From the NCBI GenBank assembly GCA_016182605.1, contig JACPGE010000010.1, positions 1 through 35,018 of the forward strand: a stretch of 35,018 nt of DNA, read 5' to 3'. Shown here one piece after another: positions 1 to 24,406 of this stretch (the stretch's first letter is position 1; every line of letters begins with the position of its first letter). The position numbers and the translations under genes were made by a program. This stretch comes from Candidatus Hydrogenedentota bacterium. Lineage in GTDB: Bacteria > Hydrogenedentota > Hydrogenedentia > Hydrogenedentales > JAEUWI01. The notes beneath the pieces are model-generated. The model saw only the letters and a list, made by a program, of their open reading frames with translations. It made no database searches and was not told the origin of the DNA.

Positions 1-453
1 TTGCTGTTGGGCGATCCCGTGCGTGCAAGGGGGCTGTTCGGGTGCTTCGATGGACAATCCCCACGCTCATCGAGTGAAGGGCTACTTTGGGCGCTTCGCG
101 TAGCACGGACCACACGGAAAAAGAAGAAAAAAGAAGGAAGGGGGCTGTCCCCGCCGGGTATGCGTTTCCTCAACGCCGCAGCACCGTCCCGCACCGGCGC
201 GGGGCTGTCCCCGGAACGTGAACATCCTTTGGATCGGAATGGGGGGCGTTCTGGTCTCGTATTCGTGTGTGTGTTGTTGACGCGGTATGGCTGCAAGCAA
301 TGTTGTGAGGGATCAAAGCCGGGTGCAACCCGGCGATCCCAGAGAGGGAATTCAGGCAAAGCCGCAAAGCCTCCGCGTTGCTCATTGCTGCAAACGCGCC
401 AATCAAACAACTTACAGCAATGGCCGCAGGAATTTCTTCGAAGGATTCGAAGA
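1..453. other. Gene-poor region with no credible CDS
   Basis: No reading frame here has a ribosome binding site, a recognisable domain or a natural start. The open frames are low-complexity and mutually overlapping, as expected for non-coding DNA. The stretch contains an A/G-rich run (117-140) and two copies of a short hairpin-capable motif, listed separately. It sits downstream of the leftward cytochrome/monooxygenase gene and probably separates it from a gene outside the window. Confidence 0.6.
141..212. repeat. Two copies of GGGGCTGTCCCC
   Basis: The 12-mer GGGGCTGTCCCC occurs at 141-152 and again at 201-212, 60 bp apart and in the same orientation. Each copy can fold as a 4-bp GGGG/CCCC stem with a CTGT loop. 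Short G-run/C-run motifs like this are seen in REP-type elements mobilised by RAYT transposases. No transposase is present in the window, so that assignment is only inference. Confidence 0.4.
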
Positions 454-586: not shown

Positions 587-1813
587 CTACTTGGCGGTCG
601 CCTCGTCGGCCCAGGAGAGAAAAATGCCGCCCATGAGCATTTCTTCCCAGGTCTGTTCGCCCCAGCGGACGGGCTTGGAGGGATCGGGGTTGTTGGGGTT
701 GTTGGCGGAGTTGTCGAAGCGGCCAACAATGCGGAAGACCGTACCCGCGGGGACACGCAGCGGCTCTTTCAACTGATAGTCGAGTTGCCAGTTGAAATCA
801 TAGGCGGGGACCGAACAGGCGAGCACCTCTTTGCCGTCAGGATACTTCAGGAAGAAGTCCATCGCCTTGCCGCGGTAGTGCATGTGCGGTGTGAAGGAGT
901 AGACGGTGGCGTCGGCGGGGATCTTCTTGGAGGCTTCGACCACATAATCGTCGTGGTGCGGGGGGATCTTGAAGTCATCATTGACCGCAAAGGCGGTCCG
1001 CAGCACTTCCTTTTCCGGGCCGCCGGCGAAGATGATACCCAGCCTCGACCGATCCTTTTCTTCCTTGCCCGTGGGGGTGTAGTGCACCTGCCAGATGAGC
1101 TTGGAGCCCTTCGGGATCTTGCGCACGACACCGTCGGGGAAGATGCCCGGGGGGGAGCCCGGCGCGTAGACGTCGAGCATGTTCTCCGTGAAGTTCCCCC
1201 GCGAGTCACCCTCTGCCTGGGGCTCCTGGAGGAAAATGATGATGTGGTGGACCGACTTCATGTTGCCCGGGCGCACTTCGATGGCCTTGACGTAACGGTC
1301 CTCCTCAAAATCGATGTCGCTCGTGAAATACCGATACGCCACGACGCCTGTGGCGGCGATGGTGACTTCTTCGGGCATCTCCAGCACGACGTCGGGCTCT
1401 CCGATGCCCCACTCGTCGTTGAAGACACGCGGCACCGGCAGCTTGGCGGGGTCGCCCTCGGGCATGCCGCCCTCCACCCAGGCGTTGAGCGCGGCCAGCT
1501 CCTCGGGGGTGAAGGACGGGTCGTTGGCCCATTCTCCCACGTGCGGGTCAAGGCCCCACGGCGGCATGCGTTTGCTGTTCACCACTTCCTGAATCATCTT
1601 GCCCCAGCCCTTCACCTGCCGGTAGGACATGAGGCTGAAAGGGCCCAGGCCTTTGGGGCGATGGCATTCCTGGCACTTGGCTTGGACAATACGCGAGATT
1701 TCCTGGGAATAAGTGACCTGTTGCGCCTCGCCGGCCGCCGCAGTGCCTCCCCAAAGGACCGCGAGCGCGCACGCTCCCACGGACACCGCCCCACACCAAG
1801 ATATTCGATTCAT
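587..1813 (-). CDS. Secreted cytochrome c fused to a PHM-like type II copper monooxygenase
   Basis: This is a 408-aa exported protein. Residues 1-27 form a signal peptide. A monohaem cytochrome c domain follows, with CQECH at 47-51 and Met83 in MPPW as the likely sixth ligand. Residues ~140-400 resemble peptidylglycine/dopamine monooxygenases. The copper ligand motifs appear in the family order: HH at 189-190 (CuH), His244 in QVHY (CuH), HMH at 310-312 (CuM) and Met392 in EEM (CuM). The cytochrome could deliver electrons directly to the copper centres; that is inference. The ATG at 1813 was chosen because it begins the signal peptide and has GGGAG upstream; an in-frame extension to 1894 has neither. 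The gene stands alone, with its own terminator at 533-563. The substrate is unknown. Confidence 0.85.
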   Translation of the reverse strand: MNRISWCGAVSVGACALAVLWGGTAAAGEAQQVTYSQEISRIVQAKCQECHRPKGLGPFSLMSYRQVKGWGKMIQEVVNSKRMPPWGLDPHVGEWANDPSFTPEELAALNAWVEGGMPEGDPAKLPVPRVFNDEWGIGEPDVVLEMPEEVTIAATGVVAYRYFTSDIDFEEDRYVKAIEVRPGNMKSVHHIIIFLQEPQAEGDSRGNFTENMLDVYAPGSPPGIFPDGVVRKIPKGSKLIWQVHYTPTGKEEKDRSRLGIIFAGGPEKEVLRTAFAVNDDFKIPPHHDDYVVEASKKIPADATVYSFTPHMHYRGKAMDFFLKYPDGKEVLACSVPAYDFNWQLDYQLKEPLRVPAGTVFRIVGRFDNSANNPNNPDPSKPVRWGEQTWEEMLMGGIFLSWADEATAK

Positions 1814-7146: not shown

Positions 7147-10100
7147 TCAGGGACCGCCACCGTTTGCCTGCACCGTGATTGCCGCGGACTGACCTTCGGT
7201 CGAACTCGTGATGTTCAGTGTGGTCTGATTGATGCCCTCAGGGAGGGCGCTCCGGAACAAGCGCACAAAGAAGGTATCGCTCTGGTTGGGGCCAAGGCTA
7301 CCCGCGAAACGGTCGAGACTCAACCACTGTGGCAAGAGTCCCGGCTCTATCGCCCAGATCAGTTCGCTCTGCCCCGTGTTGGTAATCGTCAGCTGCAGAT
7401 CGCTAATGGTCGACTGGAAGTCAAGAAAGTTCGTGCTGACTAGCAAGACGGGCGGCGCCACTTCGAAACGCAGGACGATTCCCTCGCCTTCCGTTTCCAG
7501 GCCGAGCGATCCAAAGGTATACGTGAAGTTGAATATTCCCTCGTACTGGCCCGGCGGCAAACTCCGGTTCACCGGGATGGAGATGACCGTGGGATCGCGC
7601 GTGCCGGTCACGAAGCCTTCCTGGGGCTGCACGAAGCGCGAATCGGTCACGATGGCATCGATGGTGCCGATGTTCAGCACAAACGCAAGACCCACATCTA
7701 CAAGCGGATCGCCCGGCTCGAAGCCCGGACGCACGTGGCTTCCGCCCAGATTCAGCAATTCGAGCTGCAAGGTATCGATGCCGGTTCCCAAGTCGAATAC
7801 CACCGGGTCTGTCGAAGCGGGGAGGGGGATGGAGCCGGCACCGATAAAGGGTGCCGGGAACGAGGGCGCCAGGAACGGCGTCTCATCGGTTACCAGAAGG
7901 CTGTCTGGATAGGTGAAGTAGTGGGAGTTGAAGCTGGCGGAATGCACAGGCTCGTTCACTTGGAAGTTCACAAAGAACGGCAGGTCGTAGTCCGTGATCG
8001 TGATGCGCATCAGCTCGCCGAAATCGCCATAGGTGAGCGGGGTGCCGGTGGGGGAGGAGGCGGTGAATTGCACGCCACTCTGGACGAAATCCCAGTCGCC
8101 AATGAGGCCGCCCTGCGAATTCGGTACCGCCGCGACCGCGAAGTCAGGCGTAATATCCCCGAAAATACCGGCCTCCGGCGTGATTTCGAAAACGAAGCGG
8201 TTGATGTTGCGCGGTATGTAGTCCGCGTGCACCACGATGGTATAGCTGCCATCCGGGTTCAGGCCGAGGTTGCGCAGGGAAATCTGCCCCAGGCGCACGT
8301 CGCCCGCGATGGACTCGAAGTCAAGCTGGGTTTGCTCGTACTCGCCATTGATGCTTCCCTGCTCTTCAAGGCAGGTGGAATTCGAATCGTTTGGATCGTT
8401 GAAGGAGAGCTTGCCGTTTACCTTGATGTTGCGCGCTTCTTTGAGGGTCACGTAACTCAAGATCACTTGGGACGCCAAATCCTTGGGCACCGACTGGTCG
8501 CAGGTGTCGTCTTCCAGAGTCTGGCACCAATCGGCCAATTCGGCGAAGACGGGCTCCCGGACGGGCGCGCCGAAAGGATCGATCTCGCCGGTTGGGCGGT
8601 TGCGCGTTGCGTAGAAGTGTCCGCCCGAGGCCGCGGACAGGCGCACCAGCGGATCGCTGGCCACCTTCTCGCCCCAGCCCACGGCCATGAAACGCACAAA
8701 GCTGTTCCGGAGCGCGTCCTGCGCATCCGTGATGTTCCCCGGCGGCGTCGTGAGGCGGCCGTCCGTGACGCACACCAAGGCGCGCACATCCGCATCGTCA
8801 AAGGGAATATAATTGAATTGGCTGTCTTCATTGTCCAGCAAATCCGCCGCGCTGATTACCGCGGGCAGCAATTGGGTCGCACCGTGGTCCAGAACATTGA
8901 TTGCGTTGAGGCGCGCGAGCAGAACGTCCTTGTCAGTGGTAAACGTGTCGGGACTGCCTTCGCCCGTGATGGCGCGCACGGGACTTGCTTCGCTGCCAAA
9001 GGTGCGCTCATTGAAGACCGCCAGAGCCACGCGGTAGTTGGGATCCAAATCCGCGATCATTTCGCTCACCGTGGTTTCGTAGAGGGTCTGCAGGGCATCG
9101 TTGCCATCGACCTGGGGGAGTTCCCCGTTGTCTTCCAGCACCTGCGCCGCGGCGAGCATACTGCCGGAATAGTCGAGCAGGATAAGCGCGTTGGTCCGCA
9201 GGCGGTTGCCCTGTTTGAGGAACTGCGAGGTTTCCTCGACCGCAAGCGGGTCGTCGTTCTCCGCAATATCGAACAAGCCGCCGACGGCGCTCACCTGCGA
9301 ATCTGGAATCGGCAGCACCTGACTCTTGATATTGCGCAGGAGGAGCACCGATCGGACCTGAGAGGGGATCCTGAGACGGGGGAGGGCGGTTTCGATCGTA
9401 AGTTCGGGCGCTTCGACGCTCACGTTGACCTCAACGGGCACCACATCCGGATCGGGGATGCGTTGTCCCGATAGCGGGTCGGTGATGAAAGCCGTAATGA
9501 CGAGCTTGGCCGCCGCGCCGGCGCCGTCCAGTTGGGAGCGGTCCACCGTGACGCTGATGGGCTGGAAGTCGAGGATGATTCCCGGGGGCACGCCGATGCT
9601 GGAACCGGTTTCGGGGAAGACCGAAAGCCATTCCTTGCTGGAAGTGACCTGGAAATCCAGTTTCGTGCCGGTGTCGCCACTGTTGGCGATGCCCAGTGTT
9701 TGCGAGATGGAAGTGATGCTGAAGGCCATTGCCGATGGCGCGGTGGCTATCGAGATCTCGGGCTCCACCAGGATCTCCACTCGAAGAAGAAGGAGTTGCT
9801 GATCCGGCGCATTGGACGTGATGGTCAAATCGGCTTGCGCCCCACCCACGGAGAGGGAATCGCGGCTGACGGTAATCTTGATCGACTGTTGGCGGCCCGG
9901 ATCGAGGCTGTCCTGCGTGGGCGTAATGGAAGTAATCCAGGCCGGCAATTGGGCGGGGTCTATCATCCAGTTCAGGGTGCCATTGCCCGTGTTCCGGATC
10001 ACGAAAGTCACTTCGGTCAGGTCGGAGTCGAGATTGACAAAGGGCACGCCGAAATCGTCGATACCCTGGGCGATCAGTTCCATCACCGGCACCCGGGGAA

Positions 10101-11742
10101 TCGCCGCGGTTACCGTCACAGAGACGGGGGGCAGGGGAAGGGGCTCGAGGGGAAGTTCTTGAGGAATGGAGCCTGCGACACTAAAGGTGTGGGAGAGGTT
10201 GAACTGTCCCGCGGGCGCATTGGCGCGATCGACCACTATCGTGATCAAATCGGTATTCTGCGTGACCGTGCCGGAAAGCACGGGCCCCGTGGCTTCTTCA
10301 ATGGTGAGCCAGGCAGGGAATCCGGCCAAGGCAATGGACCAGTCGATCGTACCGATACCTTTGTTAAATACTGCCACAGTCTCGCGGGTTCCCGCGGTTC
10401 CAAAATCCACGTTGCGCGGAACCACGCTCAGGCCGGCGGGTTCCGGGCGCTCCATCGTCACCACGATGGTTTCGCTGCCCGTGGCGTAGGCGACACTTAC
10501 ATTGCTCTCGTAGACGCCGGGATCGACCGCAAGAGGATTCGCAGTGAAGGTTATCACCACGGTGTTGTTGAGCGTGCCCGCGGTTACATCCGTCCGAAGC
10601 CATTGCTGATCGAAGGCGGGGATGGATACGGTGAAATCGATCGGCAACACGCCCACGTTGGTAATGGTCAACGGGTGCGTCGTTTCCTGGGAGATGATAC
10701 CGAAGTCAATGGTGTTTGTGCTGACTTCGAGCGGCGGCACTTCGATTACCGACATACGGGCCGGCACAACGACCGAGAAATCGATCGAGGGCATGAACAC
10801 GAACAAGTCGCCCGTGTAGTTACCCACCGCCAAGCCGTCGGGCTCGGCCGTCAAATTCACGCTCCGCGATTCTCCCGGATCCAGGCTGAAGCTGGGTGGG
10901 GATGCCTGGAACCACGAGGTTGGATCATTGCTTGTGGGAAGTATTTCCAGGTCAATAGCTTCGGCAGTGATATTGGTTATGGTTATACTGCTTTCAGCCG
11001 TGTCCGTTATGCCGCCAAAATCGATCGATTGCGACGAAACGCTGAAGGGCGATATGACTGTGTCCAACAGAAGCACGTAGTCGCCGCCATTGGAAGTGAT
11101 TAGAAGTTCCGTCAGGGGGGTGCCGATCGGCAGCCCTGTGCGATTTATCGTCACAGCGACCTGCTGTGTAGCGCCAAGCTGCGTCAAAGTGCCCGACGCG
11201 GGAGAGACCGTGATCCACGGTGTGGAGTCCGGTACGTCGACGGCCCAGTTCAGGGTTTCGTCCCCGTTATTGGTGATTTGGAAGGTTTGGCGGGTTGTTG
11301 TGGCGTCAAAACTCAAGAGCCCGGGGAAAACATTCAGTTCCGCGGCAAGCGACTGACTCACGCTGACGTTGGTTGACTGGTTTCCGCCGTTGGAGGTAAA
11401 GGAGACCGTCCCCGTGGTGACCCGGCCTGCGGGAAGCTGGGTACGATCAATCTCTAGCGTAATGAACTGCACGCCCGTTTCAAGGTTTCCACTCAGCTCG
11501 GTACCCTGTTTTCCCAGTTCAGGGATGGACAGCGTCAACCAGGGCGCATCTTCCACTGACGCTTCCCAATCCAGGACGCCACTGCCGGTGTTTTCAATGC
11601 GGATATTCTTCACGCTCTCCGACGGGCTGAAGTCGACCGCAAGGGGACTGACCAGGAGGGTGGGGGGGAGCACAATACATCCGCAAAATAGAGCGAGCAG
11701 AGCCATTACGGTGAGCGCCCGCGTCCAATGGGTCAAACGCAT
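7147..11742 (-). CDS. Giant VWA lipoprotein with ASH/BACON-like repeats (1531 aa)
   Basis: Residues 1-21 are a lipoprotein-type signal (ALLALFCGC). About seven ~100-aa beta-sandwich repeats follow, each built on the pattern sxxxDFG...ITNxGxxxLxWxV...WLxVxPxxG, resembling ASH (ASPM-SPD2-Hydin) and BACON domains. A von Willebrand A domain begins near 850, with the MIDAS sequence DYSGS at 857-861, a metal-binding Thr in GATQL and VTDG further on. A region containing DYIPRNINR (from Asp1174) is shared with the next gene. The C-terminus holds two more sandwich repeats. The start at 11742 has GAGGAG 8 nt upstream and opens the signal. An in-frame ATG at 11799 overlaps the upstream stop as ATGA and could be used for coupling. 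A surface adhesion or scaffold role is inferred. Confidence 0.85.
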   Translation of the reverse strand: MRLTHWTRALTVMALLALFCGCIVLPPTLLVSPLAVDFSPSESVKNIRIENTGSGVLDWEASVEDAPWLTLSIPELGKQGTELSGNLETGVQFITLEIDRTQLPAGRVTTGTVSFTSNGGNQSTNVSVSQSLAAELNVFPGLLSFDATTTRQTFQITNNGDETLNWAVDVPDSTPWITVSPASGTLTQLGATQQVAVTINRTGLPIGTPLTELLITSNGGDYVLLLDTVISPFSVSSQSIDFGGITDTAESSITITNITAEAIDLEILPTSNDPTSWFQASPPSFSLDPGESRSVNLTAEPDGLAVGNYTGDLFVFMPSIDFSVVVPARMSVIEVPPLEVSTNTIDFGIISQETTHPLTITNVGVLPIDFTVSIPAFDQQWLRTDVTAGTLNNTVVITFTANPLAVDPGVYESNVSVAYATGSETIVVTMERPEPAGLSVVPRNVDFGTAGTRETVAVFNKGIGTIDWSIALAGFPAWLTIEEATGPVLSGTVTQNTDLITIVVDRANAPAGQFNLSHTFSVAGSIPQELPLEPLPLPPVSVTVTAAIPRVPVMELIAQGIDDFGVPFVNLDSDLTEVTFVIRNTGNGTLNWMIDPAQLPAWITSITPTQDSLDPGRQQSIKITVSRDSLSVGGAQADLTITSNAPDQQLLLLRVEILVEPEISIATAPSAMAFSITSISQTLGIANSGDTGTKLDFQVTSSKEWLSVFPETGSSIGVPPGIILDFQPISVTVDRSQLDGAGAAAKLVITAFITDPLSGQRIPDPDVVPVEVNVSVEAPELTIETALPRLRIPSQVRSVLLLRNIKSQVLPIPDSQVSAVGGLFDIAENDDPLAVEETSQFLKQGNRLRTNALILLDYSGSMLAAAQVLEDNGELPQVDGNDALQTLYETTVSEMIADLDPNYRVALAVFNERTFGSEASPVRAITGEGSPDTFTTDKDVLLARLNAINVLDHGATQLLPAVISAADLLDNEDSQFNYIPFDDADVRALVCVTDGRLTTPPGNITDAQDALRNSFVRFMAVGWGEKVASDPLVRLSAASGGHFYATRNRPTGEIDPFGAPVREPVFAELADWCQTLEDDTCDQSVPKDLASQVILSYVTLKEARNIKVNGKLSFNDPNDSNSTCLEEQGSINGEYEQTQLDFESIAGDVRLGQISLRNLGLNPDGSYTIVVHADYIPRNINRFVFEITPEAGIFGDITPDFAVAAVPNSQGGLIGDWDFVQSGVQFTASSPTGTPLTYGDFGELMRITITDYDLPFFVNFQVNEPVHSASFNSHYFTYPDSLLVTDETPFLAPSFPAPFIGAGSIPLPASTDPVVFDLGTGIDTLQLELLNLGGSHVRPGFEPGDPLVDVGLAFVLNIGTIDAIVTDSRFVQPQEGFVTGTRDPTVISIPVNRSLPPGQYEGIFNFTYTFGSLGLETEGEGIVLRFEVAPPVLLVSTNFLDFQSTISDLQLTITNTGQSELIWAIEPGLLPQWLSLDRFAGSLGPNQSDTFFVRLFRSALPEGINQTTLNITSSTEGQSAAITVQANGGGP

Positions 11743-11795
11743 ACTGTACTCCTCATCCCTTGCCATCCATCGTGCCGCGAATCCTTTTCCCGTAC

Positions 11796-14700
11796 TCATG
11801 GCAGCACCACAATCAGCGTTACTGCAACTTCCTGAACCGGCTTGAATTCCAGGTCGGTCGTGAAGGTCAGAATGCCCGGGACATTGCGGGTCGGAATGCC
11901 GGTCCGGTCCACGGGGATGTTGAGCGTTTCACTTTCCCCGGGCGCCAAGCTACTGCGGGGCTCCGTTCGATTGCCGGCGCCATAGGTGATGCCGTCCTCG
12001 ACAATCCAAGTGGGAAGCTCATCCGTTTCCAGCGCCCACGTGAAGGTCTCGAGCCGGTTGTTGGTTATGGTCAGCGTGAAGCTGTTCCGGTTTGCCGCAA
12101 TTTCGAAGGGATTCGGCACGACAAAGGAATCCGGGAAATCGGGGTCATCCGGCGCGGGATCGTTGAAATCGGGGATGCCATCGCCTTCCTCGCCCACGCC
12201 ACTGTCCCGGTCCCATTCGAACTCGCGTTCTGGATTTATTCCAGGCGCCTGGAGCGTCACCAGATCGCGGGCAGGGGAGGCAATGTCCGAACGGCCCAAC
12301 TGGATGGAGAGGGGCCGGTCTGGATTCGTGCGTTCTCCGGGATAGAGGAAGTACTTCGAGTCCGACGGCTTCCCGCCACTCGCGGGCTCCACCAGCAGGG
12401 GGTTGTCCACACGCATGTACAGGAGAAACTCCGGATTCCGGCCGGCAAGGGCCGGGTCGTCGAAGAGCGCGACATAGTCTTGCAGATTCGAATAGGTTAT
12501 CTGCAACAGGCTGCCGAAGGAACCGAAGGGAAGGGGGTTCTCCTCATTGGTAACGAGAAAATAGACGCCATCGCTCTCCGGCACCAAGCGCCAGCCGCCT
12601 TGGGTTGCAAGGAGTCCGTCCGGCGCGATTTCTACTTGAACATTGGCTCCATCGAGTGCCGTCTGGAAGGATGCCGGCACGTCCTCGGGAAGGCCGGTGT
12701 AGAAGCGCACCCGCAAGCGGTTTACATTGCGTGGAATGTAATCGGTGTTCATAAAGACTTCGGCGCGGAAGCGTTGATCCGGGGCCGTCGTCCGCAAGTC
12801 CTCGATAATGCCCGTTGACTTCAGGGAAATCTGGCCGCCCAGAACATCACCGGGAAAGAAGACGCCATCGCGCATGAAAGGGCCTTCAATAACCTCGCCG
12901 TTGGGCTGGGTGTAACGGCCGATGATGGCGTATTCGAATTGCGTTTGTTTTGGCGTGATATAGGTCAAGACGATCTGATTCTGGAGTTCGCGCCAGAGCG
13001 TGCCCGGTTCGTCCCGCAGTGCAACCGAAATGTCCTCGGCTAACGAATTGTCGATGTTCGGCGTGAACTGTATTACGGCCGAGCCTGTGCCCGCGCCACT
13101 GGTAATGAGGATCTCGCCTTCGGTTCGTTCCAAGGCCGGGTAATCGGTCGGATCCAGATTCACGGTAATCGTCTGGCTGTTGCCCGGGCTCACATTGCCC
13201 GAACTGGGATTGATGCCGGTGACAAATTCCGTGTCGTTCCCCGCTCGCACATTGAAGGAGAAGGAGGAGGCGCCCATGTTGTGGATCTGAAAGCTCGCCG
13301 TGTTGGCGCCCGACATCGTGAGGCTGTCCAGAACCAGGCTCTTCTCGCCGCCAAGAATGGCGGTGAGGCCTTCCGCGGTGCCCGCGGTGTACAGGTGGCC
13401 GCCACTGTCGCGGGATACCGTGATCAGATCCGCAGTATTGACCGTTTCGCCGTTTGGGCTGTACGAAACAGGGTAGAGGCGCACGCGGGATTCTTCGGCG
13501 GTCGTCGTTACGTCGGAGAGGGTCGCCACGGACGCATTGTCTTCGCCGTCGGTCACATAGACAATGGCGCGCACATCGGCGTCGTCAAAGGGCAGGGTCT
13601 CGGGCGGATCTTCGGCCTCGAGGAGTTCCATCGTTTCAAGCAGGGCATCGTTGATATCCGAAGTGCCAAACTGGGCCTCGGGCAGCGTGAAGGCATCCAA
13701 GGCCGCCTTCAGGGATTCCCGATCGGTTGTGAATTGATGAATCACCCGGTTCGGCTGTTGAACGTTGTTGTAGAAAAGCAGAGCGACCCGGTAGCTGGGG
13801 GGGAGGTCGTCTATGAAGCGGCGTGTGGCCGCCTTCATAATGGAAACGGCCTCGCCGCGCTCCAGGCCATTCACGGGATCGGCCGTTCCCGCATTCAGCA
13901 TACTGCCGGTGTAATCCAGAAGGATGGCCAGGTTCACTTGCAGTTCATTCGTCAGAAACTGGTTCGTTTCGTTCAAGTCTAGCGCAACATCGTCTTCAAA
14001 AATTACAAACTGAAGTTTCTTGCGCTCTTCTTCGGTCTGCGTGGGCACAACCTGTCCCAGAGAATCCCGCACGAGGAATACGAAGCGCATGACATAGGGG
14101 GGGCGGCTCCGGTTCAGGGTGCCTTCCACCTGGAGCGGTTGGCGTTCCACGCGAATGACAAGTTCGGCGGGTTCCACAGCCGCCTGGGCCGTGGAGAAGG
14201 AACTGTCGAAGGCGGTCACGGTGAGGGTCCGGAGTTCGACGTCTTCGCGCAGATTGTTGCGGTTGATGGTTACCGTGATCGGTACGCCATCGATAGGCGT
14301 GTTGTTTTCCTCACTGAAAAAGTCCGAATCGGGACCATTTGTGTTGCCCTGCACGGGCGCCACGGCCGCGATCACCGGGTTGGCCGCGCGCTCATCTTCA
14401 TGGGTGATCTTGAAGAACAGGAGGGAATCCGTCGGACCGGTATTGGCCACGTAAAAGGTCAGTTGGGTTTCTTCCCGTCCAAAGTCCAGGGTTTCAATCG
14501 GTGTCACGCGTGGAGGAAAAACCTCCGTGCTCGGCGGCGAGGATATCGCGATGATGGGCACGGGAAGGACGTCGACCACGATCGGAACGATGATAAAGGC
14601 GCCTTCCGAACGGACAATCAATTGGTAGTTATTGCTGCCCTTCAGAATGTTCTCGGGATCGGTGACCTTGGCCTTGATCGCGTCCGTTTCGTTGGGGGCC

Positions 14701-15626
14701 AGCGAGCCAAACGATGATGACAGACTGATGGGCACCGACTGTGCGGCGTTGTCCAGGTTCACCAGTTCGAGGGTGTAGAGATGGCCGCCGCCGCTCATAT
14801 GGCGGATATTCAGCGTTGCTTCTGGCTGGGGCAGGGGATCGCCCTCATCGTTCTGGCCTTCCACAAGATGCAACAACAAGGTAGACGGAGTGACGCTCAG
14901 AAAATTCAGGGGCGATCCTATGCTAAAAGTCACCAGAGCCGTGCCGATGGAGGATTCCACCAAGAGGCCGAAATCGTCTCCGCCCGGAGGGAGGGTCACA
15001 TTCACGGTCGTGGATTCGCCTGTGGCGGTCGTTCCAAGCGCTGGCGAAAGCGTGATGTTGGAAGGGACTGCGCTCACCTGACCCGGTTGAGAAAGATTCG
15101 CCACAAAATTTATGGCCCAGTTGATTGCGAGCGGACTGCCATTGAAAATCTGAAAACGGGCTGTGGTATCGGTGGCCGAGAGGGAGATGGCCGAAGGCGT
15201 TACAGTCAGTTGGTTCTGTACTTCCATTGAGATCGGCACTACGACCGTGCCGCCATTCGAGGTGATGCGCACGCCGGAATTTACATAGATCCCGACGGCC
15301 TGACCGGTGCGTGAAGCCACCAAGCCGATATGGTCCACTTCCTTGCTGGTGGTGCCGAGCGTTGCGCTAAGGCTCAACCAGGGCACATCGCCCGCCACCC
15401 AATCGGCATCTTCGCTGGCCCGTACTACCTCTTGCGCTGTCCACTGAAGACTCGTCTGACCCAGGTTCGTGATAACCAGTGCGCGATTGATGCCATCGGT
15501 GCTGAAGTCGATCGATCCGGGGGAAACCAGGAGTTGGGGGGGGAGGCTCTGCGGGCAGCCCGTGAGCAGGCCTGCCAGAAGGGGCAGCACCATGAGTATT
15601 TGCAGGCGTAGTCTCGTTAGAGCCAT
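11796..15626 (-). CDS. Giant VWA lipoprotein with ASH/BACON-like repeats, paralogue (1276 aa)
   Basis: The N-terminus has a clear lipobox, LLTGC, then beta-sandwich repeats of the same type as the downstream gene. The VWA domain carries the MIDAS sequence DYTGS at 571-575, the metal-binding Thr in FGTSD and VTDGEDN. Between the VWA domain and the shared DYIPRNVNR motif (from Asp962) there is an extra sandwich repeat of about 75-90 residues that the paralogue lacks. A C-terminal sandwich repeat ends the protein. Asp/Pro-rich spacers such as DDPDFPDS occur near 1160-1180. The ATG at 15626 has GAGGTAG about 7 nt upstream and begins the signal peptide; an in-frame extension to 15689 has no such features. 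It is the middle gene of the operon. Confidence 0.85.
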   Translation of the reverse strand: MALTRLRLQILMVLPLLAGLLTGCPQSLPPQLLVSPGSIDFSTDGINRALVITNLGQTSLQWTAQEVVRASEDADWVAGDVPWLSLSATLGTTSKEVDHIGLVASRTGQAVGIYVNSGVRITSNGGTVVVPISMEVQNQLTVTPSAISLSATDTTARFQIFNGSPLAINWAINFVANLSQPGQVSAVPSNITLSPALGTTATGESTTVNVTLPPGGDDFGLLVESSIGTALVTFSIGSPLNFLSVTPSTLLLHLVEGQNDEGDPLPQPEATLNIRHMSGGGHLYTLELVNLDNAAQSVPISLSSSFGSLAPNETDAIKAKVTDPENILKGSNNYQLIVRSEGAFIIVPIVVDVLPVPIIAISSPPSTEVFPPRVTPIETLDFGREETQLTFYVANTGPTDSLLFFKITHEDERAANPVIAAVAPVQGNTNGPDSDFFSEENNTPIDGVPITVTINRNNLREDVELRTLTVTAFDSSFSTAQAAVEPAELVIRVERQPLQVEGTLNRSRPPYVMRFVFLVRDSLGQVVPTQTEEERKKLQFVIFEDDVALDLNETNQFLTNELQVNLAILLDYTGSMLNAGTADPVNGLERGEAVSIMKAATRRFIDDLPPSYRVALLFYNNVQQPNRVIHQFTTDRESLKAALDAFTLPEAQFGTSDINDALLETMELLEAEDPPETLPFDDADVRAIVYVTDGEDNASVATLSDVTTTAEESRVRLYPVSYSPNGETVNTADLITVSRDSGGHLYTAGTAEGLTAILGGEKSLVLDSLTMSGANTASFQIHNMGASSFSFNVRAGNDTEFVTGINPSSGNVSPGNSQTITVNLDPTDYPALERTEGEILITSGAGTGSAVIQFTPNIDNSLAEDISVALRDEPGTLWRELQNQIVLTYITPKQTQFEYAIIGRYTQPNGEVIEGPFMRDGVFFPGDVLGGQISLKSTGIIEDLRTTAPDQRFRAEVFMNTDYIPRNVNRLRVRFYTGLPEDVPASFQTALDGANVQVEIAPDGLLATQGGWRLVPESDGVYFLVTNEENPLPFGSFGSLLQITYSNLQDYVALFDDPALAGRNPEFLLYMRVDNPLLVEPASGGKPSDSKYFLYPGERTNPDRPLSIQLGRSDIASPARDLVTLQAPGINPEREFEWDRDSGVGEEGDGIPDFNDPAPDDPDFPDSFVVPNPFEIAANRNSFTLTITNNRLETFTWALETDELPTWIVEDGITYGAGNRTEPRSSLAPGESETLNIPVDRTGIPTRNVPGILTFTTDLEFKPVQEVAVTLIVVLP

Positions 15627-15737
15627 GTACGCTACCTCGTATTCCTGATTAGAAAAACTTCCACAGCACGGCAATCTTCGCGTCCGCAAGGTTCACTCTG
15701 GATGGAATGGCTCGAAGACCCATGCCCGCAAGCAGCC

Positions 15738-19715: not shown

Positions 19716-21134
19716 CTACGCGATCAGGTCGTGCATCACATTGCCGTAGACGTCCGTCAGGCGGTAGTCCCGGCCCGAATAGCGGTAGGTCAATTCGGTG
19801 TGGTTGATGCCCAGCAGGTGCAGGATGGTGGCGTGGAGATCGTGCACGTGCACCTTGTTCTCCACGGCGTGCCAGCCATACTCGTCCGTGTTGCCGTAGG
19901 TGAGACCGCCCTTCGTGCCGCCGCCCGCCATCCACATCGTGAACCCGAAGGGATGGTGCTCCCGGCCGTTGTCGCCCTCGGCCGTCGGCGTGCGGCCAAA
20001 CTCGCCGCCCCACAAGACGATGGTCTCGTCGAGCAGCCCGCGCGCCTTCAGATCCTTCAGCAGACCCGCAATGGGCTTGTCCGTCGCGGCGCAGTTCAGC
20101 GGCAGTTCCTGTTTCAGGCCGCCGTGCTGATCCCAGAGCTGGCAGCTCGATCGTTTGGCGGTCTGTGTGTGGTAAACCTGCACACAGCGCACGCCGCGCT
20201 CCACCAGACGCCGCGCCATAAGACACTGCTTCCCGAAGATCGCGGTGGACTCTTCGTTCAGTCCATACAAGTTCTGGGTGGCTGCGGATTCCCCGGCCAC
20301 ATCGAAGGCCTCCGGCGCCTCGGTCTGCATGCGGTAGGCCAGTTCAAACGAGGCGATTCGCGCGCTCAGGCGGGAGTCCTCTTCCCGTGCCGCCGCGTAT
20401 TCCTGGTTGACCGCGGCGAGGAGGTCCAGTTGCTTCCGCTGCATCGCGCCGGAATAGCGCGGGTTGGCCAGGTTGGCAATGGGCGCGTCCAGGTTGGAGA
20501 CGAGCGTGCCCTGATAGGCTGCGGGCAGGAAACTCGATCCCCACAGTGGCGCGCCCTGGGCCGGCTGCGCCGGACTCAGCACCACGAAGCCGGGCAGGTT
20601 CTGGTTCATGGTGCCCAGGCCATAGAGCAGCCACGAGCCCAGGCTGGGCCGCGAGAAACTCTGCTCGCCCGTGTTCATCTGGAGGCAGGCGCCGTTGTGG
20701 TTGATGTTGTCCGCCACCATGGAGCGGATCATGCAGAGGTCGTCCGCGCAGGTCGAAAGGTGTGGGAGCAGTTCGCTGAATTCCATGCCCGATTCCCCGT
20801 GGCGGGAGAACGTCCAGGGCGATCCGAGCAAGTTGCCGGTCTTGGTGCGTTCCAGCTTGGGCTTCTCGAAGGGCAGGGGCTTGCCCATCTCCGCCAGGAG
20901 GCGCGGCTTCGGGTCGAAGAGGTCCACATGAGAAGGGCCGCCAGACATGAAGAGGAAAATGAGGTTCTTGGCTTTGGGCGGAATGTGGGCAGCGCGCACG
21001 GCGAGGGGATTCTGCGTCGCGGCCAGGGCTCCGGATTGTTGCAGGACCGTGGCCAGACCCAGCATGCCAAAGCCATTGGCGAACTGCTTCAGCGCCTGGC
21101 GCCGGGAGTAACGGGGGGGATGATTGCTGTCCAC
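19716..21134 (-). CDS. Tat-exported DUF1501 protein (sulfatase-like fold)
   Basis: This 472-aa protein belongs to the DUF1501 family, which shares the alkaline phosphatase/sulfatase fold and is abundant in Planctomycetes. The N-terminus has a twin-arginine signal, YSRRQALKQF, followed by a hydrophobic stretch. Family motifs include MSGGPSHVDLFDPKP near 65-80, GGEFGRTP, HHPFGFTMWMAGGG and the C-terminal GRDYRLTDVYGNVM. The GTG at 21134 was chosen because GAGGAG lies 6 nt before it; an in-frame TTG at 21149 would put that site inside the gene. It starts 11 bp after the PSD1 cytochrome gene ends, the standard pairing. The enzymatic activity of the family is not established. Confidence 0.92.
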   Translation of the reverse strand: MDSNHPPRYSRRQALKQFANGFGMLGLATVLQQSGALAATQNPLAVRAAHIPPKAKNLIFLFMSGGPSHVDLFDPKPRLLAEMGKPLPFEKPKLERTKTGNLLGSPWTFSRHGESGMEFSELLPHLSTCADDLCMIRSMVADNINHNGACLQMNTGEQSFSRPSLGSWLLYGLGTMNQNLPGFVVLSPAQPAQGAPLWGSSFLPAAYQGTLVSNLDAPIANLANPRYSGAMQRKQLDLLAAVNQEYAAAREEDSRLSARIASFELAYRMQTEAPEAFDVAGESAATQNLYGLNEESTAIFGKQCLMARRLVERGVRCVQVYHTQTAKRSSCQLWDQHGGLKQELPLNCAATDKPIAGLLKDLKARGLLDETIVLWGGEFGRTPTAEGDNGREHHPFGFTMWMAGGGTKGGLTYGNTDEYGWHAVENKVHVHDLHATILHLLGINHTELTYRYSGRDYRLTDVYGNVMHDLIA

Positions 21135-21145
21135 GGTGGGGCTCC

Positions 21146-24100
21146 TCAATCGACGAAGACGAATTCGTTGGCGTTCAACAGGACCTGCGCGTAAGCCGTC
21201 ACCCCTTCGGGAGCGGGGTAGCCCAGTGCGGGCAGGGCCTCCCGCGTCAGGGTGATTTCGCCGGGGGACGGGGCACGCATATATATACGTCCATACAACG
21301 CGTTGGCCAGGCCCTCGGCATCGGCCGCGGCAGGCGCCATAGCCGACGCCAGGCGCTCCGATTCGCTCAGCATAAAGGGATGGTTCATGAGAAACAAGGC
21401 CTGGGGGGAGACGGTCGTCTCCAGACGCTTCGGAATGATGGAGGTGGGGTCGGCCGCGTCAAACAGCATGGGGTAGGTGCTCCGATCGGATCGCACCGTG
21501 CGCAGGTAGAGCGTGCGGCGGGGTGTGTCCAGTTCCTTGAAGGCTGGCCCGCCCGCCGTGAGATCGAGGCGTCCAGAAACGGCCAACAGACTGTCGCGCA
21601 GGGCTTCGGCTTCGAGGCGCTTGCGGTTCATCCGCGCCAGCAACAGGTTCTCGGGATCCTGTTGCAGCGACTGCGCGTTGCCGCGCGAATCCTGTTGCCA
21701 CGCCGCCGTGTTCAGAATCAGGCGGTGCATCTCTTTCATCGACCAGCCCGACGCCATGAAGCGCCGCGCAAGATAGTCCAGCAATTCGGGGTGGGTGGGG
21801 GCTTCGCCCTGCTTGCCGAAGTCGCCCGGTGTGCGCACGAGTCCCTGCCCGAAGTGGTGCTGCCAGATACGGTTCACCATGACACGCGCCGTGAGCACAT
21901 TATCGGACGACGCCAGCCAGTTGGCCAGTTCAACACGGCCACTGCCGCCGGTGATGGGGGCCTGTTCCGCGCCCGCCAGGATCAGCGGCATGCGGCGCGG
22001 CACCAGATCGCCCAGATTGTTGTAGTCGCCCCGGCGGTGCACACGCACATCCTGCACACCCACATAGCCCGTGTTCGGCACCGGCCCCTCCTGAATGCCC
22101 ACGGCGTAGTCGAGCGGGGGGAAGGGCTGGGCTTCCAGTTGCGCCACTTCGGTGTCGATCTCCTGAAGCCGTCCCGGTGCAGTCGGAGGTGTTGCGATCC
22201 AGAAGGGCCCGGTCTCGCCGAGGAGCTGGGCCGTGATCGCGCTGCCGGCCGCCTCCGGATGGGCCAGGGCCGCGTCCACCAAAGATTGAATCGCAGCGGC
22301 GGCCTCAGTGAGGACGTCCTCGCCGCGCGCACCGCTGGAGACTGCTTTAGAGGCGCTCCACCACGGCGAGAAGAGCACCGGATCGGCCGTCAGGCCTTCG
22401 GTGCCATCGAGCAGCCACCATACTGCGGGGTGGCCTTGCGCGTCGGGCAGGGGATTGCTTTCCGTGAAGTGGGGGACCACCTCCTGGGAAATGTTCCACG
22501 TGGAGCCGGAAGTAGCTTGTATAGTGATGTCGATCACCGTGCTGTCGCAACTGTGATCGCCCTTCGGCGCGATGGTTAGGAGCAGGCTGTCGCCCTCCTG
22601 CACGGTGAGGGGCGCTTCGGAGGCGAAGGGGGCCGACGCGCCATTGTCCACAGCGCCTGATAATACCGATTGAAGGACTCCGCCGGTGAGATATTCGACG
22701 CGCCACTCCACCCCGTCGCCACAGGTGCCGTCCGCATCGGCGATCCGCCCCGTGATCTGAATGGTGTCCGCAACGGGACTCTGCCACTCCACGCGCACCG
22801 GCACACCGGGCGCCGGATGGACCACGAGAGACTGGGCGGGCTGGGTGATGCTCAGGTACTTAAGTTCATTGGTGGTCGCGTTTGCGACGGACGAGGGGAG
22901 CGGCGCTTCGGTGCGGCGCGCATTCAATCCCGCGTTACCGGCGACGTCGCGATCGATGACGTTCAGCGTACGATACGCGCCCGGACTCACGTAGCGCTTC
23001 CAGCGCTCGACCGATTCCGCGTTCAGTTCCGGACCGGCAGGCGCGCCCTGCCGCGACGCGAGCAGATAGGCGCCGGTCTTGGCCGCTTCCTGACGCGCCC
23101 ACGCCGTGCGCGACTCTTTTATCAGACCCTCGCGCTCGCCACGCAACGCAGCAAGGCGAGTTTCACGCTCCGCACGCGCCGCCAACTCCTCCTTCGATGC
23201 GATGGGCAGATGCAGAATGGGGGAGCCCTCGGTCTTCGCGCCGGGCCCCGGCAGGATCGAGCTGCTGAAGAAGATCCCCGCGAGCCCGTAGTAGTCCTCT
23301 TTCACGAACGGATCGAACTTGTGATCGTGACACCGCGCGCAGGCCATGGTGGAACTCAGGAAACCGCGCGTCACCATGTCGATCTGATCGTCCACGATAT
23401 CCGCCACCATCTTCTCCTTGTCCGCGTCGCCCTGGGGCCAGTTGCCGATGGCGAGCATCCCCGTGGCGATGAGACCGTCCCGGTTGAAGCCGCCGTCCGG
23501 CCCGGGCAGGAGATCGCCCGCAATCTGGTAGCGCACGAACTGATCGTAGGGCATGTCCGCGTTGAAGGCGTTCACCACCCAGTCGCGGTAGCGCCAAATC
23601 TCCACGGGGTCCGTCGCGGCCGTCGCGCGCGAGTCGAAGGAATCGGTATAGCGCACCACGTCGAGCCAGTGCCGCGCCCAGCGCTCCCCATATTGCGGCG
23701 TGGCCAGCAGCCGCTCCACCTCCTCGGCGAAGGCACCGGGCGCTTCGTTCGCCACAAAGGCCGCCACCGCCTCCGGGGTGGGCGGCAGCCCGGTAAGATC
23801 ATAGGTCAGCCGGCGCAGGAGCGTCCGCCGATCCGCGGGGGACGCAGGGGAGAGTCCCGCAGCCTCGATCTTCGCGAGGACGAAGTAATCCACCTCGTTC
23901 CGGGGCCAAGCCGCCTGCTGCACGGCGGGCACCTCGGGATTCGCCAGCAACTGATACGACCAATGGGCTGACGCCGGCACGGCTACAGGAGCCGTTGGCG
24001 CTTCCGGGTAGACTGGCCAGGGCGCGCCCTGGGTCACCCACGCCGTCAGGACGTCAATCTCCGCCTGCGGCAATTTGCCTGGGGGCGGCATCTGGGGTTT

Positions 24101-24406
24101 GCCTTCATAGCCGATGACGGTAAGCAGCAGGTTCTCCCCGCCGACGAGAGGCCCCCGCGAACCGCCCTTCTGGAAGGTGGCCGCATTGTCCAGGCGCAGT
24201 TCCGACTTCTGGGTCTCCGCGCCGTGGCATTCGAAACAGCGCGCCGCCAGAATGGGCCGCACCTTCTGCTCAAAGAAGAAGGCCGGGTCTGGAGGCGGCG
24301 TTTCGGCTCGCGCCAGGGGCGCCAGGCACGCCAGCGAAACGAGGGTCCAGGCCGCAAAGCGGCTGCGGCGTGAAAAGGGGCTATAGTTGGCGGTGTCGTT
24401 TTGCAT
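21146..24406 (-). CDS. PSD1-family cytochrome c protein (DUF1549/DUF1553)
   Basis: This 1086-aa secreted protein has a signal peptide (~14-35) and an N-terminal planctomycete-type cytochrome c domain with CFECH at 57-61. A DUF1549 domain follows (DYFVLAKIEAAGL, RHWLDVVRYTDSF) and includes the conserved CARCHDHKFDP. A central beta-sandwich region (~480-640) may bind carbohydrate. DUF1553 forms the C-terminal part (VMVNRIWQHHFGQGLVRTPG). With the downstream DUF1501 gene it makes the two-gene unit found in many copies in Planctomycetes and linked by genomics to polysaccharide breakdown. The ATG at 24406 has no ribosome binding site, but TATAAT ends 7 bp upstream of it, so the mRNA may be leaderless. 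Confidence 0.92.
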   Translation of the reverse strand: MQNDTANYSPFSRRSRFAAWTLVSLACLAPLARAETPPPDPAFFFEQKVRPILAARCFECHGAETQKSELRLDNAATFQKGGSRGPLVGGENLLLTVIGYEGKPQMPPPGKLPQAEIDVLTAWVTQGAPWPVYPEAPTAPVAVPASAHWSYQLLANPEVPAVQQAAWPRNEVDYFVLAKIEAAGLSPASPADRRTLLRRLTYDLTGLPPTPEAVAAFVANEAPGAFAEEVERLLATPQYGERWARHWLDVVRYTDSFDSRATAATDPVEIWRYRDWVVNAFNADMPYDQFVRYQIAGDLLPGPDGGFNRDGLIATGMLAIGNWPQGDADKEKMVADIVDDQIDMVTRGFLSSTMACARCHDHKFDPFVKEDYYGLAGIFFSSSILPGPGAKTEGSPILHLPIASKEELAARAERETRLAALRGEREGLIKESRTAWARQEAAKTGAYLLASRQGAPAGPELNAESVERWKRYVSPGAYRTLNVIDRDVAGNAGLNARRTEAPLPSSVANATTNELKYLSITQPAQSLVVHPAPGVPVRVEWQSPVADTIQITGRIADADGTCGDGVEWRVEYLTGGVLQSVLSGAVDNGASAPFASEAPLTVQEGDSLLLTIAPKGDHSCDSTVIDITIQATSGSTWNISQEVVPHFTESNPLPDAQGHPAVWWLLDGTEGLTADPVLFSPWWSASKAVSSGARGEDVLTEAAAAIQSLVDAALAHPEAAGSAITAQLLGETGPFWIATPPTAPGRLQEIDTEVAQLEAQPFPPLDYAVGIQEGPVPNTGYVGVQDVRVHRRGDYNNLGDLVPRRMPLILAGAEQAPITGGSGRVELANWLASSDNVLTARVMVNRIWQHHFGQGLVRTPGDFGKQGEAPTHPELLDYLARRFMASGWSMKEMHRLILNTAAWQQDSRGNAQSLQQDPENLLLARMNRKRLEAEALRDSLLAVSGRLDLTAGGPAFKELDTPRRTLYLRTVRSDRSTYPMLFDAADPTSIIPKRLETTVSPQALFLMNHPFMLSESERLASAMAPAAADAEGLANALYGRIYMRAPSPGEITLTREALPALGYPAPEGVTAYAQVLLNANEFVFVD

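Follow-up and report, generated by a model that had tools for sequence, protein, structure and literature searches.

The window, meaning the whole stretch of 35,018 nucleotides analysed here, is contig C38 of a 130-contig genome of 6.76 Mb (completeness 97.9%) from a Candidatus Hydrogenedentota bacterium. Near its start lies a gene whose product joins a c-type haem domain to a copper domain like that of peptidylglycine monooxygenase (PHM) and dopamine beta-hydroxylase (DBH). The gene and the elements recognized in it are as follows.

587..1813, minus strand: gene of the haem-copper protein, 408 aa, from ATG at 1813 to TAG at 587-589
1733..1813, minus strand: signal-peptide-like start, residues 1-27, recognized by eye, with low pLDDT
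1430..1726, minus strand: c-type haem domain, residues 30-128, matching Cytochrome_CBB3 at E 8e-4, under the cut-off of that model
1661..1675, minus strand: haem-binding motif CQECH, residues 47-51
1565..1567, minus strand: Met83 in MPPW, candidate sixth haem ligand
602..1420, minus strand: PHM/DBM-type copper domain, residues 132-404, by Foldseek, VIA-align and profile match
1244..1249, minus strand: H189-H190, predicted CuH ligands, aligned to the HH of PHM and DBH
1082..1084, minus strand: H244 in QVHY, predicted CuH ligand, aligned to the QVHY of PHM
878..886, minus strand: H310-M311-H312, the two His being predicted CuM ligands, aligned to the HTH of PHM
638..640, minus strand: M392 in EEM, predicted CuM ligand, a weak sequence match to the DEM of PHM

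The preliminary description had proposed a coding feature at 587-1813 without naming its strand; the feature is real and lies on the minus strand, translation and homology being found in this frame only. A slightly longer plus-strand frame (572-1900, 442 aa) was rejected as antisense, since all homology falls in the minus frame. The start of the protein, judged by eye, looks like a Sec signal peptide. A terminator scan around the gene gave one site where 1.5 were expected; an inverted repeat seen by eye at 531-566, just downstream of the stop and with a few T residues after it on the minus strand, was left unscored by that scan. Elsewhere in the window two very long adjoining genes of about 1500 and 1270 aa have a lipoprotein-like look (7147-15689, minus strand), and a 1086-aa protein with two CxxCH motifs adjoins a 472-aa secreted protein (19716-24406, minus strand), a pair we take to resemble the DUF1549/DUF1501 pair of planctomycetes.

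An AlphaFold model built from a 58-row alignment reached a pLDDT of 88.8 and a pTM of 0.84. When this model was submitted to Foldseek, ranks 1 to 31 were all PHM or DBH, and VIA-align gave Z scores of 18.4-22.3 for 26 PHM/DBH rows; the double jelly-roll fold of PHM is thus present. The next family was PNGase F at Z 8.8, and the part of the literature consulted gives PNGase F as a distant fold relative (PMC8812541). When 177,635 PDB sequences were searched with a 30-row profile of the copper domain, human DBH was retrieved at E 7e-8 and rat PHM at E 4e-6, with the HH pair, the His of QVHY and the HxH motif aligned in order; the stretch with the Met (DEM of PHM) was recovered as a non-significant second piece only. 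In the structural alignment model residues 141..406 match PHM 62..328, so that Met392 stands 14 residues before the end of the alignment, as does PHM Met314, which we take to be a copper ligand.

Single-sequence and family searches were less sensitive. The window protein alone found chance matches only in the PDB (E 0.36-0.67), did not match the copper-monooxygenase Pfam models (Cu2_monooxygen and Cu2_monoox_C) at E 1, and had no credible family in NCBIfam, where one match at E 0.11 scored 12.7 bits, the cut-off being 100; NCBIfam likewise gave no family for L009, L024 or the redoxin-haem protein P0004. Among 58 relatives, searched at E 0.01, Cu2_monoox_C (PF03712) was matched in 22 and Cu2_monooxygen (PF01082) in one, and some copies from the window's own genome exceed the Pfam cut-off. 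The Pfam model misses divergent members, and the class assignment is made on fold and ligands. Assignment to the lytic polysaccharide monooxygenases was considered and rejected: there is no His before H51, an N-terminal histidine brace is lacking and the fold is that of PHM.

The ligand residues HH189-190, H244 in QVHY, HMH310-312 and M392 in EEM are found exactly at the positions proposed for them, and fold, profile and conservation support well the copper part of the larger proposal, in which a PHM-type domain with all six copper ligands in PHM order is fused to a cytochrome c. A spacing of these residues too wide for two copper sites was considered by way of the fold match to PHM only, and that match argues against it. 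The window protein, seven copies from its own genome and the fetched loci were aligned (98 rows), and seven partial rows were dropped. In all 91 remaining full-length rows C47, C50, H51, M83, H189, H190, H244, H310, H312 and M392 are invariant. Three of the six patterns used to fetch loci carry H312, M392 or CxxCH, so these columns were partly selected; none of the patterns contains H189, H190, H244, H310 or M83. In a wider set all six copper ligands are kept in 152 of 153 copper-domain rows, a set that includes duplicates (L111 repeats L011).

Evidence for the haem part was obtained separately. It carries the CxxCH haem attachment site of a cytochrome c (CQECH), and Met83 is likely the sixth haem ligand, to judge from its invariance. 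Cytochrome c Pfam models recognize the domain weakly in the window protein, and Cytochrome_CBB3 was matched in 46 of the 58 relatives at E 0.01. Folded alone, the domain is predicted to form three helices (pLDDT 85.1); with this model neither Foldseek nor VIA-align gave a PDB match. A profile search aligned two blocks of the domain with the haem region of hydrazine synthase alpha (E 1e-4).

The nearest named relatives of the window protein come mostly from Hydrogenedentota (L010, L011), and in a quick 42-row tree it joins these two and L009 in a four-member clade with full support; L009, labelled Acidobacteria, could be mis-binned or transferred. At E 1e-20 at least one copy was present in 24 of 68 Hydrogenedentota genomes, with up to 25 copies in a genome, and PF03712 was found in none of 14 well-known control genomes. 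The 80 loci kept from the fetch are all titled MAG, and locus labels include Hydrogenedentota, Acidobacteriota, Planctomycetota, Gemmatimonadota, Myxococcota and Pseudomonadota. The window's own genome holds 12 copies at the same threshold, of which 11 keep all six copper ligands and one has lost all six. This last copy (L106, 5581-7260, plus strand, contig C95) retains CxxCH and has an N-terminal extension; going by its residues, it is a natural pseudo-enzyme.

A redoxin-like domain precedes the haem and copper domains in seven of the 12 own-genome copies according to an in-house profile; in Pfam, AhpC-TSA or Redoxin was matched in five (L004-L008) of seven own-genome copies searched, three of them over the cut-off, and no redoxin domain was found in the window protein. 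On contig C85 of the same genome three redoxin-haem-copper genes stand in tandem (L101, 4550-9812, plus strand). A third arrangement was met in a gammaproteobacterium (L080, 3939-8655), where a redoxin-haem gene stands by itself between haem-less copper genes, three in all, and stops at the point where the copper domain would begin. A search around this genome gave copper-domain matches in 25 of 56 genomes. Twenty stretches were examined, of which 19 had been selected because their copper frames are short; stretch L158 is fused and is left out of the count, so that with L080 added the loci with haem-less copper genes number 20. In 19 of these 20 loci (L080, L139-L154, L156 and L157) a same-strand redoxin-haem gene adjoins a copper gene at a gap of 0-241 nt, and each of these redoxin-haem genes carries CxxCH and MPP. 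The sole exception, L155, has a haem-less copper gene and no redoxin-haem gene. Two layouts recur, copper / redoxin-haem / copper / copper and copper / redoxin-haem. The 19 split loci represent few independent events, because the genomes are related. In the 42-row quick tree the split lineage nests inside the redoxin-haem-copper lineage (SH-aLRT 94 and 95), which makes fission the simpler reading.

From these observations we favour, with a probability of about 0.7, a secreted (periplasmic) and uncoupled two-copper monooxygenase that would hydroxylate C-H bonds with O2 and receive its electrons singly through its own c-type haem. The protein would bind two coppers. An electron from the periplasmic cytochrome pool would reach haem c and pass to CuH and then across the pocket to CuM, and O2 at CuM would abstract a hydrogen and insert oxygen into a C-H bond of an organic substrate, all of these steps being modelled on the chemistry of PHM and DBM. 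The haem probably feeds the coppers, since the haem-copper pairing persists in split loci nested within the fused lineage, which is support for a functional link between the two centres; this evidence comes from a gammaproteobacterial clade other than that of the window. The preliminary description had seen in the fused haem a built-in electron source in place of ascorbate. Indirectly, this idea gains from the pairing kept through splitting and from NosR-like neighbours in many gammaproteobacterial relatives.

A different division of labour would leave the copper domain a true monooxygenase supplied by a small-molecule reductant, as PHM is by ascorbate, the haem docking a partner or carrying electrons elsewhere. 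The pseudo-enzyme L106, which keeps its haem motif after loss of every copper ligand, is a point for this alternative and gives at least one instance of a haem part that is not there to serve copper. Against it speak the joint invariance of haem motif, M83 and copper ligands throughout the 91 rows and the pairing retained in 19 of 20 loci after gene splitting, and we consider it unlikely. Alternatively, the copper site would not hydroxylate at all and would instead serve copper storage or sensing, peroxide removal or nitrogen oxide reduction. The redoxin domain of many paralogues could point to peroxide or thiol chemistry, and, to go by their titles, the crystal entries of PHM include complexes with nitrite and azide. 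However, both copper sites and their order are exactly those of the hydroxylases and the window protein is without a redoxin domain, which leaves such a use rather improbable.

In relatives, certain genes recur near that of the enzyme. In 31 of 34 clade I loci (L017-L031, L033-L043 and L045-L052, assigned by nearest representative) the enzyme gene is adjoined by a conserved gene for a secreted, beta-rich protein that fits no known family, located before or after it and always on the same strand (e.g. L031, 7299-8168, plus strand); a profile of this protein found no PDB relative. Among 35 gammaproteobacterial loci (L053-L079 and L081-L088), 25 have a NosR-like gene (FMN_bind plus Fer4_5) within about 5 kb, as in L056 (8588-10651, minus strand), and 17 have a gene for a secreted 'GQPDLQG' protein near the enzyme. 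Two of the NosR-like genes matched the NosR model at E 9e-47 and 2e-43, under the model cut-off. NosR itself hands electrons on to nitrous oxide reductase in the periplasm. The NosR-like gene and the 'GQPDLQG' protein may possibly form an electron route, so that in some relatives electrons would perhaps arrive via a NosR-like quinol dehydrogenase. None of these three neighbour families was found in the window's clade, for which the window, L009, L010, L011, L099, L100, L112 and L113 were examined, and this clade has no conserved neighbour. Among all loci without such neighbours are contigs broken off close to the enzyme gene.

Residues of the presumed substrate pocket were compared with those of PHM, where we take R240, N316 and Y318 to clamp the carboxylate of the peptide. 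In the window protein T308, M394 and G396 stand in these columns; with the clamp residues absent, peptide amidation is unlikely. The clamp columns vary among the own-genome copies, in which the metal ligands are constant except in L106, and the substrate would differ between paralogues and would probably not be a glycine-extended peptide. Haem-less rows (from L080 and L139-L157) differ in that column 308 is Arg in 47 of 50 and column 396 Tyr in 47 of 50, with Ile in place of Asn in 48 of 50; three of the 50 belong to the window's order and are truncated or lie at an edge. An Arg and a Tyr in these columns make it possible that the substrate of the haem-less lineage carries a carboxylate. The same two residues, as well as a fold and ligands shared with PHM, are what could be said for a genuine peptidylglycine hydroxylase in bacteria, one that produces amidated peptides. 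In the case of the window protein this is very improbable, given T308, G396 and M394 in place of the clamp. A Pfam search of the protein found no PAL lyase domain, and NHL genes near L027 and L048, weighed as candidates for the lyase, match Thin/TRIM71 better.

In the portions of the literature covered, PHM is treated as eukaryotic in two papers, a review table places PHM and DBM in its eukaryotic column only (PMC7435645), bacterial haem-PHM fusions are not described in the parts consulted of PMC3494510 or PMC5987398, and a search by titles and abstract openings found no paper on them. We put at about even odds the wider proposal that some six bacterial phyla share a large family of two-copper monooxygenases that are driven by haem and need no ascorbate. 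Its members would come in three builds (haem-copper, redoxin-haem-copper, and split redoxin-haem with several copper proteins) and number 10-25 in some genomes, with metal ligands that stay fixed while the pocket residues change. If true, the family would amount to an extracytoplasmic oxidation system running parallel to the cytochromes P450, with the window protein among its simplest builds. A ligand-complete bacterial family with a tethered donor would offer a simple system in which to follow electrons reaching and crossing two distant coppers, the natural split version would be a ready two-component test, and new oxidation catalysts could come from the family.

Copper enzymes of the PHM/DBM type are those with which animals finish peptide hormones and make noradrenaline. 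The window protein resembles PHM (PDB 1phm, 1sdw) in fold (Z 22, about 2.7-3 A over 250 residues) and in its six ligands in order, and differs in being bacterial, in an identity of about 20%, in the haem c domain in front and in the unmatched clamp residues. DBH (PDB 4zel) is the best sequence-profile match, at the E-value given above, and its fold score is equal (Z 22.0). Where the window protein has a c-type cytochrome, DBH has a DOMON domain, and DBH uses ascorbate. Closer to home, the redoxin-haem-copper fusions of its own genome (e.g. L107, 195-2369) have the same haem and copper domains and ligands and differ by an extra N-terminal AhpC/TSA-redoxin domain. The split gammaproteobacterial genes typified by L080 encode the same domains on separate neighbouring genes; their copper proteins are without haem and, unlike the window protein, have Arg and Tyr in pocket columns 308 and 396. 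In the system of cellobiose dehydrogenase and lytic polysaccharide monooxygenase a haem domain hands electrons to a copper oxygenase. There the haem is a cytochrome b on another protein, and the oxygenase has one copper in a histidine brace and a fold unrelated to PHM, yet its logic is the one proposed here for the window protein.
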